The translations under genes and the position numbers were made by a program. Below are positions 21,122-28,160 of a stretch of 64,000 nucleotides of DNA, piece by piece (position 1 is the first letter of the stretch; every line of letters begins with the position of its first letter). The stretch is from Deltaproteobacteria bacterium. Its GTDB lineage: Bacteria; Myxococcota; Myxococcia; SLRQ01. The DNA is taken from assembly GCA_029210625.1 (NCBI GenBank), contig JARGFU010000004.1, forward strand, positions 209,329-273,328. The letters are read 5' to 3'. Under the pieces are notes generated by a model. The model saw nothing but the letters and a program-made list of their open reading frames with translations, did no database searches and was not told the origin of the DNA.

Positions 21122-21655
21122 TCAGGAGACGACCGCCCGGCTCCGGCAGCTGTCGCAGAGGCGGGCCTCCTTGCGGTCGGTGTCGGAGAGGGTGTTCGAG
21201 ATGAACATCGCGCAGCTCTCGTGGTTGCAGCCCGGCAGCCCGAGGACGTGGCCCACCTCGTGGAGGACCTCGCTGGCCAGCCGCCGCATCAGGAGAGAGT
21301 GGTCGGGGGGCCGCCCGTACCAGGAGGGCCGCAGGCGCGCCAGGGAGACCACCGCGGCCTTCCCCTCGCGGTCCGAGTCACCGAAGACGAAGTTCACGTC
21401 GGGCATGAAGAGGTCGACCTCGCAGAGCCCGACGCCCATCAGGTGCTTGCGCGGCGAGATGGCCTGCCCGACCCGCCGGACGATGGCCGTCGCGTGGAAC
21501 TGGTCGTTGCCGGCGTTGAAGGCGTACTTCGGCTCACCGAGGCTGATGAGCAGCTCGAAGGGGACGCCCAGCGTCTCTTGGAGATGCGTGCCCACCTCCC
21601 GGCAGAGGTTCTTGGGCATCGCACCAATCGGGATGATCGCCAGGGTGCGCTCCAT
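21122..21655 (-). CDS. Archaemetzincin-family zinc metallopeptidase (M54)
   Basis: A 177-residue protein with the complete archaemetzincin signature: HEVGHVLGLPGC (132-143), Cys148, the met-turn Met150, and Cys167/Cys170. The three histidine/glutamate residues form the catalytic zinc site and the four cysteines a second zinc site. No signal peptide is seen, so it is probably cytosolic. Archaeal and human homologues are aminopeptidases on small peptides; the natural substrate is unknown. Start ATG 21655 (MERTLAIIPIG) matches the family. Confidence 0.9.
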   Translation of the reverse strand: MERTLAIIPIGAMPKNLCREVGTHLQETLGVPFELLISLGEPKYAFNAGNDQFHATAIVRRVGQAISPRKHLMGVGLCEVDLFMPDVNFVFGDSDREGKAAVVSLARLRPSWYGRPPDHSLLMRRLASEVLHEVGHVLGLPGCNHESCAMFISNTLSDTDRKEARLCDSCRSRAVVS

Positions 21656-21710: not shown

Positions 21711-24053
21711 TCAGAATGACCAGCCGATGCCTCCGCCGACCAGGAGGGAGTCGTGCAGGTAGGCCTGCACCGAGGTGCCCGCCGAGGTGGCCCAGGAGGT
21801 GATCCCGTATTCGTAGGCGAGATCGAAGAAGAGGCGGAAGGGGCGCAGGTCGAGCTCGAAGCCGAGCCCCGCGCGGGTGGAGAGGGAGTCGGAGAAGACC
21901 GTCAGGCCACCCTCCAGGTAGGGCAGGAAGCGCCAGAGGCTCACCGGGTGGAAGCGGCCGGCCAGGCGCACGCCCAGGGGCTTGAGCAGGAGGGTGGTGG
22001 CGACACCGGCGCGCCCCATCCGCCAGCCCAGCTGCAGGCCCACGCCCACCCCGAGCCCCCAGTTCTCGGCGTCTCCGATCCGGGTCTGGGCCAGCACCTC
22101 GAGGTCGAGGCGCGGCGCCAGGAGGAGGCCCTCGGCCGGGGTCTCCCAGAGCGGTGAGATGCGCTCGGGGATCCGGTCGCGGTCGAAGCTCTCGGCGATC
22201 TCGAGGTCGCGGGAGATGATCTCGAGGAGCGCCGAGCGCACCTCGTCGAGGAGGCTGTCGAGATCCCGGGCGTGCCGGGCGGTGCGGGCGATGTTGCGCT
22301 TGGTGTTGAGGTCCACCAGGGTGAGGTTCAGCACGAAGCGGCTGCCGACCTTGCCCAGGGTGCCCGAGAGGATCCGCTCGGCGTCCAGGGCGCTCGAGAC
22401 CGCGCCCCCGCAGCCCGCGTCCGAGGCGCAGCCCAGCAGCTGCCGCTGCTCCTCCAGGGAGAGGAGGCCGCTCACCTCCGCGTGGCCCATCACGTCGTAG
22501 ATGTCGAGGCTGCCCAGCTCCGACTGCACGAACTCCGAGAGCGAGCGGGCGTCGGGGCCGAGGTCCACGTTCGCGCCGCCGCCGGGGGAGAGGCCGAGGA
22601 AGGCCAGGCGCATCTTCGGGCGCCCCTGCTCGTCCTCCTCGCGGGCCGCCGCGCCGCCGGGCGCCGCCAGGGCCCCCAGGAGCAAGAGCGCTCCGAGGCG
22701 CCGGCCCAGGGCGCGCAGGCGCGCGGGGGTCGAGAGGGCGAAGAGGGCGATCAGGCCGAGGGCGAGGAGGAGCAGCCCTCCGCCGCCGGCGCTGGAGCAG
22801 TCGTAGCGCGGCACCGGGTAGGTCGGGCCGCCGTCCGGATCGGCGCCGCCGTCGGCGCCGCCCGCGTCCGGGGCGCTGCCGTCCGGGGTCCCGCTGTCCG
22901 GCGCGCTCCCGTCGGGGGTGCCGCCGTCCACCGGCGCGGGCCCCGGCCGCTCGTAGAGGTAGGTGTCGTTGAGGGGGGTCATCGCGCCGCCCCCCGGCCG
23001 TCCGCGGCCGCCGAAGAGGAGGAGGCCGTCGGCGGTGGCGACCATGTCCGCGTCCCCGCGCGCCATGGGCGGGCTGCCGGCGGGGGTGATCTCGACCCAG
23101 GCCGCCTCGGTGACCTCCCAGGTGTCGCCCAGGGGATCCACCAGGGTGGCGTCCATCCCGCCGAAGGCGACCAGGACGTCACCGTAGGCGGCCAGGCTGG
23201 TGCCATAGCGGCGGGGCGGATCGACCTGGGGCACGGTCACCGGCGAGACGTCGGTGCAGTTCACGCCCCGGTCCATCCTCCACAGGTCGTTCATCACGCC
23301 CATCGTGTTGAAGGAGCGCCCGGCGAAGACGTAGACGGCGTCGGCCTGCGGCCAGTAGGCCATGGCGTGGCCGTAGCGGTCGGGCAGGGTCGCGTCCCCG
23401 AGGCTGGTCCAGGAGGCGGTGGGGATCCCGCCGCCGTCGGTCACGCTCAACACCCAGAGGTCGGACTGGGTGTTGTTGTTCACGCTCCCGCCGAGCATCC
23501 AGATCAGGGGTCCGCCCGAGCCCACCGGGTCGTGGACCATGGTGTGGTTGTGGCGGATGGCCGGCGGGGTGGTGCCGCTCTGGTCCACGCCGCGCCAGGC
23601 GCCGTTCTTCCAGATCCACACGTCGTTGAGCCACGCGGTGTAGGAGTGCCCGCCGAAGAGGACCACCCCCTGGAGGGTCGGGTCGTAGACCATCGCGTGG
23701 CCGTGCCGCTTCGGGGGGCAGGAGGTGGGCGTGCAGGTCACCGGGCCCACCTCGGTCCAGCTGCGGTTCGCCAGGGACCACTCCCAGGTGTCCTGCAGCT
23801 CGAAGTCCCCGGTGCCGCTGTCGACGGTGCCGCCGAAGAGGACGACCACCTCGCGGTCGGAGTCGTAGGCCATCGCGTGATCGAAGCGCGCCGGGGGCTT
23901 CTGCCCGACCAGGTTCAGGGCCGTCCAGGTCGGCTCGGTGACCAGCGCCTGGCGGTGGGTCCCGTAGGGCTCGGGATCGCTCCCGCAGCCACAGATCGTG
24001 AGCCCGCAGAGGCTCCCCAGGGAGATCGTCACGACGAGAGCTCGAAGGTGCAT
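21711..24053 (-). CDS. Kelch propeller with MYXO-CTERM-like anchor, fused in frame to a second signal-anchor, FlgO/CsgG-like and beta-barrel-like region
   Basis: A 780-residue protein. A signal peptide with possible lipobox (TICGC) is followed by six Kelch motifs (R-x-x-H-A-M-x-Y-D...V-x-L-F-G-G at roughly 57, 110, 160, 225, 280 and 330), i.e. one six-bladed propeller. Next come a PDGSAPD linker and CSSAGGGGLLLLALGLIALFAL then Arg residues, which resembles a MYXO-CTERM sorting tail. Instead of stopping, the frame continues through a second signal-like helix (LGALLLLGALAAPGGAAA), a domain like FlgO/CsgG lipoproteins (residues about 490-620) and an aromatic-ended strand-rich C-terminus (...GGGIGWSF) like an outer-membrane barrel. 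No ATG/GTG/TTG start precedes the second signal helix in this frame. Confidence 0.75.
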   Translation of the reverse strand: MHLRALVVTISLGSLCGLTICGCGSDPEPYGTHRQALVTEPTWTALNLVGQKPPARFDHAMAYDSDREVVVLFGGTVDSGTGDFELQDTWEWSLANRSWTEVGPVTCTPTSCPPKRHGHAMVYDPTLQGVVLFGGHSYTAWLNDVWIWKNGAWRGVDQSGTTPPAIRHNHTMVHDPVGSGGPLIWMLGGSVNNNTQSDLWVLSVTDGGGIPTASWTSLGDATLPDRYGHAMAYWPQADAVYVFAGRSFNTMGVMNDLWRMDRGVNCTDVSPVTVPQVDPPRRYGTSLAAYGDVLVAFGGMDATLVDPLGDTWEVTEAAWVEITPAGSPPMARGDADMVATADGLLLFGGRGRPGGGAMTPLNDTYLYERPGPAPVDGGTPDGSAPDSGTPDGSAPDAGGADGGADPDGGPTYPVPRYDCSSAGGGGLLLLALGLIALFALSTPARLRALGRRLGALLLLGALAAPGGAAAREEDEQGRPKMRLAFLGLSPGGGANVDLGPDARSLSEFVQSELGSLDIYDVMGHAEVSGLLSLEEQRQLLGCASDAGCGGAVSSALDAERILSGTLGKVGSRFVLNLTLVDLNTKRNIARTARHARDLDSLLDEVRSALLEIISRDLEIAESFDRDRIPERISPLWETPAEGLLLAPRLDLEVLAQTRIGDAENWGLGVGVGLQLGWRMGRAGVATTLLLKPLGVRLAGRFHPVSLWRFLPYLEGGLTVFSDSLSTRAGLGFELDLRPFRLFFDLAYEYGITSWATSAGTSVQAYLHDSLLVGGGIGWSF

Positions 24054-25676: not shown

Positions 25677-26501
25677 ATGCACGACCGGCGCGTTCTTGGA
25701 GGAGGCGAGCAGGGTCAGGTGATCGTCGAGCAGGCGATCATCCTGCCCATGATGGTCTTCCTGATCCTGGGCATCGTCCAGCTCTCGATGCTGCAGCATG
25801 CCCGGATCGCGACGGAGTACGCGGCCTACAACGCCGCGCGCTCCGGGATCGTCTACAACGGCGACGTCGACAAGATGGAGCGCGCCGCCTTCTTCTCCGT
25901 CCTGCCCACCCTCGGCCGCTCCGACAACTGGGGCGACCTCTTCCAGACGGTCTTCTCCAAGGCCCTGCTGGCCCAGTTCGGGGCCGATCTGGCCGACATG
26001 ATCGGCTTCGACATCCTCGGCAGCATGAAGATGGTCCAGGTCGAGATCCTGGATCACCCGGACCCCAACATCGGCGACCGCCTCGGCATCGTCGATCAGC
26101 AGCAGCACCTCAACCAGCAGCAGATCGACTTCGACGACTTCCGCACCCAGCCGGCCATCGCGAACCAGCTGACGGTGCAGGTGAAGTACTTCTACAAGAT
26201 GCGGATCCCCTTCGCGAACTGGATGCTCCACTACATGTGGATGGCCTCCCGCGCGGACGCGATGGCCGCCTACGGCACGGTCGCCTTCGCGAACCCCGAG
26301 CGCACCATCCTCGGGCGCCGCACGGGGATCGGCTCGCACACCGAGATCCTGGCCCGCGCCGCGGCCAAGTCCGGGGACGACGACGACCTGCGGGTGGTCC
26401 TCCAGTACCGGGTCGCGGGCGAGTACCGGATCCCGATCAACACCCACTACACGATGCGGATGCAGTCCAACCTGTACCGCACCTACCTCGAGGGGAACTG
26501 A
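25677..26501 (+). CDS. TadE-like pseudopilin-type protein
   Basis: A 274-residue protein, first of a five-gene operon. The N-terminus has the TadE pattern: EQGQVIVEQAIILPMMVFLILGIVQ, a Gly before a hydrophobic helix with Glu shortly after, as in class-III prepilins cleaved by a TadV-type peptidase (see the QGQVIVEQ motif at 12-19). The remainder is an extracytoplasmic domain. The next gene starts 3 bases after its stop. In Tad systems TadE/F are minor pilins needed for Flp pilus assembly; the role here is inferred. About 200 bases upstream (25477-25676) must carry the promoter. Confidence 0.8.
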   Translation: MHDRRVLGGGEQGQVIVEQAIILPMMVFLILGIVQLSMLQHARIATEYAAYNAARSGIVYNGDVDKMERAAFFSVLPTLGRSDNWGDLFQTVFSKALLAQFGADLADMIGFDILGSMKMVQVEILDHPDPNIGDRLGIVDQQQHLNQQQIDFDDFRTQPAIANQLTVQVKYFYKMRIPFANWMLHYMWMASRADAMAAYGTVAFANPERTILGRRTGIGSHTEILARAAAKSGDDDDLRVVLQYRVAGEYRIPINTHYTMRMQSNLYRTYLEGN

Positions 26502-26504
26502 CCG

Positions 26505-28160
26505 ATGCTTCTGATGATCCATCGGCTTCGCCGAGACGAGGAGGGCCAGACCCTGGTCCTGGGCGCCGTCTCCATGCTGGTCCTGGCCCTGGCCGTGATG
26601 ACCACGATCAGCATCGGTGAGGCGGCCTACGAGAAGATCAAGCTGCAGAACACCGCCGACGCGGCGGCCTACTCGCTGGCGGCCACCCAGGCGCGCGCGT
26701 TCAACTTCTTCGCCTACACCAACCGGGCGATGATCGCGCACTACAACACCGCGCTGACGATGGTGGCCTACCTCTCCTTCTGCATCTACGTGAACAACAC
26801 GCTGGGGAGGCTGGCGGGGCTCCTCAAATACATACCCATACCCGTGTTCTCACAGGTGATGACCTTCATCGAGAAGGCGCTGGAGATCGTCACCAAGGCC
26901 TTGCGGATCGTGGTGGCGGTCGTCTTGCCCATCGTGAACATCGTCAACGGGGCCTACTTCCTCTTCCAGATGGGCATGCTGGGGGTGCTGGCAGCGCAGC
27001 TGCTCCAGAACTCGGGCATCGTCTACGAGAACGACCCCGACGCCGTCTCGGGGGTCGACCTGGGCAACCTGAACGCCGGCTCGGTCTTCCAGGTGCTCAT
27101 CAAGGGCTTCAACGGCATGGCCGTCTACAACGCCTTCGACTTCAAGTCGACGATGGCCCTGGTCCCGGTCTACGGAGCCAACCGCAACTTCGACAACGTC
27201 AAGAACACCAACGGTCCCCAGATCAAGAACGCCGCCGGTCAGGACCGCGGCAACGAGGGGCGGTTGATCATGAACGAGCTGATCAACGCCGGCCGCCATC
27301 CCTGGGTGACCATCTCGAAGAACGGCACGCCCTTCCTCGGCCGGAAGTGGCGGATCAACATCGGCATCCTGGGCTTCGGCATCGAGTTCAAGAAGAGCGC
27401 CCGGACCGAGCACAACGCCACCACCGGCATGGGGTCCCGCAGCAACTCGCGGCACGACATGATCTTCTCGGTGGACCAGTTCTACATCCGGCTCTACGCG
27501 CCCTCGTACTGGTTCAAGATCACCTACAACTCCTTCGTGCTGGCCGACTACAAGAAGGGCGGCGAGCTCGAGCAGCTGCAGGTGAAGGACAAGAAGTGCG
27601 GCAAGTGGAACTGGCGCTGCAAGCTGGGCAAGGCCATCACCGCCCCGGTGCGCGAGATCCTCAAGGCGGCCTTCAAGGCCTTCCCGGGCCTCAACCGCCT
27701 CAAGGAGAAGAAGTACTACTGGTTCGGCATCACGCCCTTCATGAAGTTCAACCCCTCGCCGAAGTGGCGGGAGGTCTTCCACCAGCCGCAGTTCATGATG
27801 CTGGTGAGCAAGCCGGACGAGAAGCTCAACAAGCTCCAGGACACGGCCCACCGCAGCTACGGGATGGACACCAAGGTCGAGGTGGGCTCGGGGGCCTGGC
27901 AGAACCGCCGGGGCAGCAACAAGTCGCTGAACCTGGAGGTGGACGTCACCGACGAGTCCTCCTTCATCTCCAGCCTGATGCCGGGCTTCAACGCCCTCTC
28001 GGTGGCGCGCTCCTACTACCACCGCCCCGGTGAGTGGAAGGAGCACCCGAACTTCTTCAACCCCTTCTGGGCCGCCAAGCTCGACCCGGTGGCGCACCAC
28101 GCCATGATCGGCGAGATCCCCCACCTGGCGAACTTCGGCGACGAGATCATCCTGCACTGA
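26505..28160 (+). CDS. TadG-like protein with N-terminal pseudopilin helix
   Basis: A 551-residue protein. The N-terminus (RRDEEGQTLVLGAVSMLVLALAVMTT, motif EEGQTLVLG) followed by EAAYEKIKLQNTADAAAYSLA is the typical start of TadG-type proteins (putative Flp pilus-assembly TadG-like N-terminal domain). Two further hydrophobic spans occur near 85-105 and 125-165, so part of it may be membrane embedded. The large basic C-terminal region (many Lys/Trp/Phe) is not recognised. Start ATG 26505 lies 3 bases after the previous stop. Confidence 0.75.
   Translation: MLLMIHRLRRDEEGQTLVLGAVSMLVLALAVMTTISIGEAAYEKIKLQNTADAAAYSLAATQARAFNFFAYTNRAMIAHYNTALTMVAYLSFCIYVNNTLGRLAGLLKYIPIPVFSQVMTFIEKALEIVTKALRIVVAVVLPIVNIVNGAYFLFQMGMLGVLAAQLLQNSGIVYENDPDAVSGVDLGNLNAGSVFQVLIKGFNGMAVYNAFDFKSTMALVPVYGANRNFDNVKNTNGPQIKNAAGQDRGNEGRLIMNELINAGRHPWVTISKNGTPFLGRKWRINIGILGFGIEFKKSARTEHNATTGMGSRSNSRHDMIFSVDQFYIRLYAPSYWFKITYNSFVLADYKKGGELEQLQVKDKKCGKWNWRCKLGKAITAPVREILKAAFKAFPGLNRLKEKKYYWFGITPFMKFNPSPKWREVFHQPQFMMLVSKPDEKLNKLQDTAHRSYGMDTKVEVGSGAWQNRRGSNKSLNLEVDVTDESSFISSLMPGFNALSVARSYYHRPGEWKEHPNFFNPFWAAKLDPVAHHAMIGEIPHLANFGDEIILH

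Follow-up and report, generated by a model that had tools for sequence, protein, structure and literature searches.

A predicted two-product precursor in a myxococcal genome, in which a sorting-tail-like segment and a second signal peptide are joined in one reading frame

In Myxococcus xanthus, MXAN_5598 has an internal MYXO-CTERM signal, and gene fusion together with N-terminal processing has been proposed for this protein (Guo, Haft and Wall 2025, PMC11980579). In that paper it appears as a single atypical case in a set of 35 proteins, and it is listed elsewhere as an OmpA domain protein in the vesicle cargo of M. xanthus (PMC4158809). As far as it is described, the signal of MXAN_5598 follows an adhesin part and precedes an outer-membrane barrel with an OmpA part, an arrangement like that of the frame analysed here, which differs in pairing a kelch protein with a TolB-N/barrel protein. 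The passages of PMC11980579 that deal with MXAN_5598 mention neither a second signal peptide, nor other families, nor variation between split and fused forms; the MXAN_5598-type relatives that we examined had, like our frame, a second signal behind the Arg cluster. In Haloferax volcanii, HVO_0405 is a strain-specific fusion of two formerly independent genes, and its central cleavage was shown to be archaeosortase-dependent (PMC7157517). As a two-gene fusion with a central sorting signal it resembles our frame, from which it differs in that both enzyme and signal are archaeal and that no second signal peptide is mentioned in the corresponding parts of that report. The TraA/TraB pair of M. xanthus, compared here solely by its description in PMC11980579, likewise combines a MYXO-CTERM surface protein with an outer-membrane partner encoded after it, but in separate, overlapping ORFs. 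MXAN_2561/MXAN_2562 (NF045522, NF040596) belong to protein families different from those of our pair, and in them also a MYXO-CTERM protein adjoins an outer-membrane barrel gene, the two being fused in some genomes. The cytochrome b/c1 precursor FbcH yields two products from one frame, the internal signal being cut by signal peptidase, and unlike our frame it has no sorting tail between the products. The titles, abstracts and text passages that a literature search retrieved described neither such fusions as a class nor the second signal, and the in silico myxosortase paper cited by PMC11980579 may say more. The kind is known from single cases; what is new is that it is general, that the double-signal joint is stereotyped and that gene pairs switch between overlapping, abutting and fused forms.

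The stretch of DNA that was analysed (the window) comprises 64,000 nucleotides. As a first-pass annotation of it had claimed, a kelch protein with a MYXO-CTERM-like tail and a second exported protein are contained in one frame (Table 1), the 780-aa ORF translating without a stop in the order signal, kelch region, linker, Cys/helix/basic segment, second signal-like helix, alpha/beta domain and barrel. The N-terminal signal appears to be lipoprotein-like, the exact position of its lipobox being doubtful. The kelch region was matched by PF24681 with 139 bits (cut-off 50) and by four more Pfam families over their gathering scores, including PF13418, PF13415 and PF13964. Within the joint, Cys419 with its SSAGGGG, a hydrophobic run (residues 427-444), RLRALGRR (445-452) and a second hydrophobic run (453-470) follow each other in one frame; the second run ends in GGAAA and REEDEQ begins at residue 471. 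The annotation had also stated that no start codon precedes the second signal helix in frame, and indeed no ATG, GTG or TTG was present in frame from three residues before the basic loop to four residues into this helix, the nearest start codon being a TTG within the helix itself. At codon position 3 the GC content ranged between 0.90 and 1.00 over the ORF, with 0.96 for residues 416-472, and its evenness across the joint gave no sign of a frame change there. As for the surroundings, the next gene downstream (window positions 21122-21655, minus strand) has the look of an archaemetzincin-type metalloprotease by a reading of HEVGHVLGLPGCNHESCAM, and two frames at 25677-28160 (plus strand) resemble, by eye, TadE/TadG-type membrane proteins.

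Table 1. Position of the fused frame and of its parts in the window, with the basis of each assignment
Feature	Position	Strand	Basis
Whole fused ORF, 780 aa from ATG	21711..24053	-	ORF listing and translation without stop
N-terminal signal, lipoprotein-like, aa 1-24, MHLRALVVTISLGSLCGLTICGCG	23982..24053	-	From sequence
Kelch beta-propeller region, aa 40-370	22944..23936	-	Pfam
Pro/Asp/Gly-rich linker, aa 371-415	22809..22943	-	From sequence
MYXO-CTERM-like segment YDC419SSAGGGG and hydrophobic helix, aa 417-444	22722..22805	-	Sequence; leave-one-out profile match, 18.7 bits
Basic loop RLRALGRR, aa 445-452, common to sorting tail and second signal	22698..22721	-	Sequence
Second signal-peptide-like helix LGALLLLGALAAPGGAAA, aa 453-470, predicted cut before R471	22644..22697	-	Sequence; A-x-A excess over the joint set
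TolB-N/LpoB/PelC/CsgG-like alpha/beta domain, aa 478-619	22197..22622	-	AlphaFold model; 140 related ORFs
Predicted 8-strand outer-membrane beta-barrel, aa 639-780	21714..22139	-	AlphaFold model and fold search

The description of the tail as MYXO-CTERM-like was borne out by the order of its elements, since Cys419, the helix and the Arg-rich end were all present, with an Arg cluster looser than RRR. It did not extend to the curated model: the tail was not among the TIGR03901 matches obtained in the genome at E<=1 and did not reach the cut-off of 20 bits, and an NCBIfam scan of residues 401-481 gave no match. Neither is the segment C-terminal, 328 residues following the loop in the same frame. 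When a joint profile was built without the row of the window, the window scored 18.7 bits (E 3.6e-4 for 5000 sequences), a value reached by none of 200 shuffles; in the leave-one-out tests all 10 joints scored above their own 200 shuffles, the weakest (G019) with only 11.4 bits.

The C-terminal half was modelled with AlphaFold from eight aligned sequences (mean pLDDT 74.7, pTM 0.43). The model has an alpha/beta domain at model residues 8-149 and eight strands at 172-308, the placing of the domain relative to the barrel being uncertain. Matches to the alpha/beta domain were TolB (4pwz, Z 12.1), PelC (5t11, Z 10.5) and LpoB (4q6l, Foldseek E 2.4e-4); in the model, this domain is nearest in fold to TolB-N, LpoB and PelC, a likeness of fold only, from which function does not follow. 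The annotation had labelled it FlgO/CsgG-like; among the sequence and fold matches listed there was none to FlgO. At E<=1 in Pfam the window protein matched kelch-type families and, weakly, RAG2, the alpha/beta domain having no curated family match; its relative in contig C56 of the same genome matched DUF3280 below the cut-off. The end of the protein is predicted to be a closed eight-strand barrel of the small OmpA/OmpW type, the fold matches of the predicted model being OprF-N (Z 15.5), NspA (15.2) and OmpW (15.0). At least 22 CsgG-like places were seen in the window genome (G000), and in many of the unfused CsgG-like relatives with ends listed the C-terminus resembles a two-helix hairpin, not a barrel.

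Using the window protein as query, 35 places were found in its genome, several of them spanning the joint in other long frames. The TIGR03901 model gave 54 matches at E<=1, 35 of them over the cut-off, and 51 of the 54, including all those 35, were inspected. Of the matches over the cut-off, 30 were terminal or nearly so in their frame, and five (C22, C27:19740, C1:13622, C20:104908 and C61) were internal, with at least 209 residues after them. Two more internal MYXO-CTERM segments (C14:28025 and C56) scored below the cut-off, and the joints of the window and C16 were detected via the domain search, so that nine joints between different protein pairs were found in this genome. All nine showed a Cys, a helix, a loop of 3-10 residues with 2-5 basic ones and a second helix; the frames of two of them, C56 and C61, extend into contig ends. 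The first halves preceding CsgG-like domains were kelch, propeller-like (by eye), FG-GAP/Big_1 or unknown. In other joints a PKD/NHL half was followed by a CXXCH/EGF half, a matrixin-type metalloprotease half by HEAT repeats and, in C14, an MXAN_2561-type half by an MXAN_2562-type barrel, the second of these halves being above the NCBIfam cut-off for the MXAN_2562 family and the first, with 115 bits, below the cut-off of 150 for the MXAN_2561 family.

In C27, two CARDB/He_PIG proteins share one frame (L076:345-4862); both have a MYXO-CTERM (that of the second copy being terminal), and the second begins with its own signal-like helix, as an in-frame tandem duplication would give. In the last ~65 codons of L032 (C56) the CsgG-like frame becomes a DnaQ-type exonuclease stretch (NCBIfam matches at aa 553-630), and this contig end is possibly a chimera. 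The CsgG-like matches G000:C1:433976 and L163 (G032:C24) were first taken for joints and were rejected on inspection. In the stretches inspected, no MYXO-CTERM gene was located directly upstream of the unfused CsgG-like genes of G000:C7, C6, C18 and G131:C423, indicating that the second half is not always partnered; three of these four genes fall in the window's group of the tree described below.

The search was extended with a joint-and-domain profile to 147 genomes of the class, and with a joint profile to 58 and then to 195 genomes, the frames being inspected singly; the alignment behind the joint profile included the row of the window and eight more rows from its genome. The resulting table covers 58 joints from 35 genomes of the phylum, three of these genomes lying outside the class. 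The 58 include close relatives (for example L176, L178, L180 and L183, or L184 and L185) and three frames (L159, L161 and L216) whose beginning coincides with that of the contig, with 9-36 residues ahead of the Cys. Their common plan was a Cys motif, a helix, a basic loop of 3-14 residues and a second signal, with 2-6 basic residues in the loop and no acidic residue in 56 of the 58. With cut positions set by eye, a small residue was found at -1 of the assigned second cut in every joint, A-x-A in 44 and a Cys at +1 in two. The A-x-A test was repeated by a fixed rule, which found the motif after the loop in 54 of the 58 joints, whereas 39.1 were expected from shuffling, a moderate enrichment; in the first helix there was no excess (25 observed, 22.9 expected). 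The second signal of L358 (G111:C23) and L351 (G154:C424) ends in a lipobox-like Cys, and the second product of these joints may be a lipoprotein. L245, which matched the joint regular expression, was a false positive and was dropped, and locus L366, scanned against NCBIfam after its stops had been replaced by X, gave no matches.

These results suggest that the window ORF is probably a natural two-product precursor, which arose by the merger of two adjacent co-directional genes; we infer the cleavages, the lipidation, the topology and the partnership of the products. The N-terminal signal would export the kelch protein, and the MYXO-CTERM-like helix would halt in the inner membrane, leaving the basic loop in the cytoplasm, which is the side expected from the positive-inside rule. 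This putatively cytoplasmic loop would double as the n-region of an internal second signal peptide, which would direct the C-terminal part to the periplasm. Cleavage near Cys419 by a myxosortase-type (CPBP-type) enzyme would leave the kelch protein lipid-anchored on the surface, signal peptidase I would cut after Ala470 and free the TolB-N/PelC-like protein with its outer-membrane barrel, and the gene merger would keep the surface protein and the barrel protein at a 1:1 ratio. MYXO-CTERM sorting, in its published model, requires the myxosortase MrtX and the type II secretin GspD (PMC11980579); in the window genome MrtX was matched by NF040593 with 185.7 bits (cut-off 180; G000:C46:7023-7730) and GspD with 579 bits. 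The annotation had offered a polyprotein-like protein cut at both signals as one of its readings, and this is the best explanation, the cuts themselves being predictions. Judging from the sequences, the window frame is one of a widespread class. It is somewhat more probable than its opposite that this is a class of Myxococcota polyproteins in which a myxosortase-type and a signal-peptidase cut flank a hairpin with a shared cytoplasmic Arg loop, freeing a surface protein and an outer-membrane partner, and in which lineages switch the pairs between overlapping, abutting and fused forms.

It is unlikely that the two helices form instead a stable hairpin, uncut or cut once, with the halves staying joined or one of them staying on the inner membrane. 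Such a hairpin would agree with the failure of the window tail to match the curated MYXO-CTERM model, with the moderate size of the A-x-A excess after the loop and with the fact that both cleavages are so far predicted ones. However, a barrel tethered at the inner membrane would have difficulty in reaching the outer membrane, like halves exist as separate proteins with a terminal MYXO-CTERM or with their own signal peptide, and two of the second signals end in a lipobox-like Cys.

Relatives were compared for separate versus fused genes, a check that the annotation had called for, and both forms exist, so orthologues are not always split. The window pair is split in G032, a genome of another family, where the kelch frame ends with YGCQCQTFPPEAFAAGLVLLLAFRRRRA followed by a stop and the CsgG-like and barrel frame comes next in the same reading frame; the kelch half matched that of the window at 28% over 255 residues, and the other half its counterpart at 31% over 310. 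NF040596 was present in 57 of 58 genomes. At the 57 loci of the MXAN_2561/MXAN_2562-type pair (G013, with its pair split over contigs, being left out and G057 counted twice), the genes were separate in another frame in 49, abutting in frame in one, fused in five (G000 in C14, G001, G049, G032 and G012, the last with internal ATGs) and without a tail found in two. The nearest start of the separate pairs was 4 nt inside the stop in 31 (31/57 at -4 nt, a rough and probably low count, some rows having been measured from a stop beyond that of the tail). In the abutting pair, L326 (G052:C23), the stop lies directly before a GTG, and the genes are one stop codon from fusion. The MXAN_5598-type second half was fused in G033, G004, G037, G043 and others, which we read as probable relatives of MXAN_5598 by its printed description and their OmpA-like end. 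In the window genome (C19) it is a separate gene that starts within ~45 nt of a MYXO-CTERM stop, and its protein matched the fused one of G004 at 36% over 661 residues.

The overlap of about 4 nt between separate relatives would also fit a C-terminal protein made chiefly through re-initiation inside the frame, close to the basic loop, from two genes that simply have no stop between them, as would the in-frame ATG, GTG or TTG at or near the loop of 35 of the 58 joints. We regard this as very improbable, because the other 23 joints, including the window, have no such codon, nor have seven of the nine in its genome, and the nearest one in the window is the TTG inside the second helix; the upstream protein would be translated through all the same.

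A two-product precursor is supported by a tree of CsgG-like domains, which comprised 20 fused and 108 unfused ones (128 in all) after omission of the 12 of the 140 related ORFs that scored under 60 bits. This tree was poorly resolved, 61 of its 125 inner branches being open. The fused label required 6 changes on it, compared with 18.9 in shuffles, the starred branches forcing at least two, and the C-terminal domain of the window fell into a group (support 83) with fused proteins from two other families. This clustering of the fused domains suggests that fusion in the class is older than the window genome, and it seems to have been gained or reversed more than once. The annotation's alternative of a recent gene fusion therefore stands as regards an in-frame fusion with both signals kept, but not, for the class, as regards "recent". 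That the fusion or stop-codon loss is a lone and recent one, under no selection and heading to decay, is likewise very improbable: in its favour, the one other genome of the family that was searched (G001, 85% complete) had no match to the window protein, but the joint recurs across families with both signals kept. An assembly or sequencing error joining two genes at 22700-22760, which the annotation had also raised, has a negligible chance even though the genome is in 64 contigs and another joint, C56, is near a chimeric-looking contig end, since the window joint sits inside a 275-kb contig, codon-position GC is even over it and like joints recur in many other assemblies, including the single-contig genomes G083, G047 and G037.

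If the proposed processing is true, C-terminal sorting tails also serve as internal joints, and gene callers and motif searches limited to C-termini would overlook substrates. A single gene would then suffice to recognise a surface protein and its outer-membrane partner as a pair. With this set of joints, myxosortase could be tested on natural substrates whose size would change greatly on cutting, and surface proteins of unknown function would gain candidate partners.
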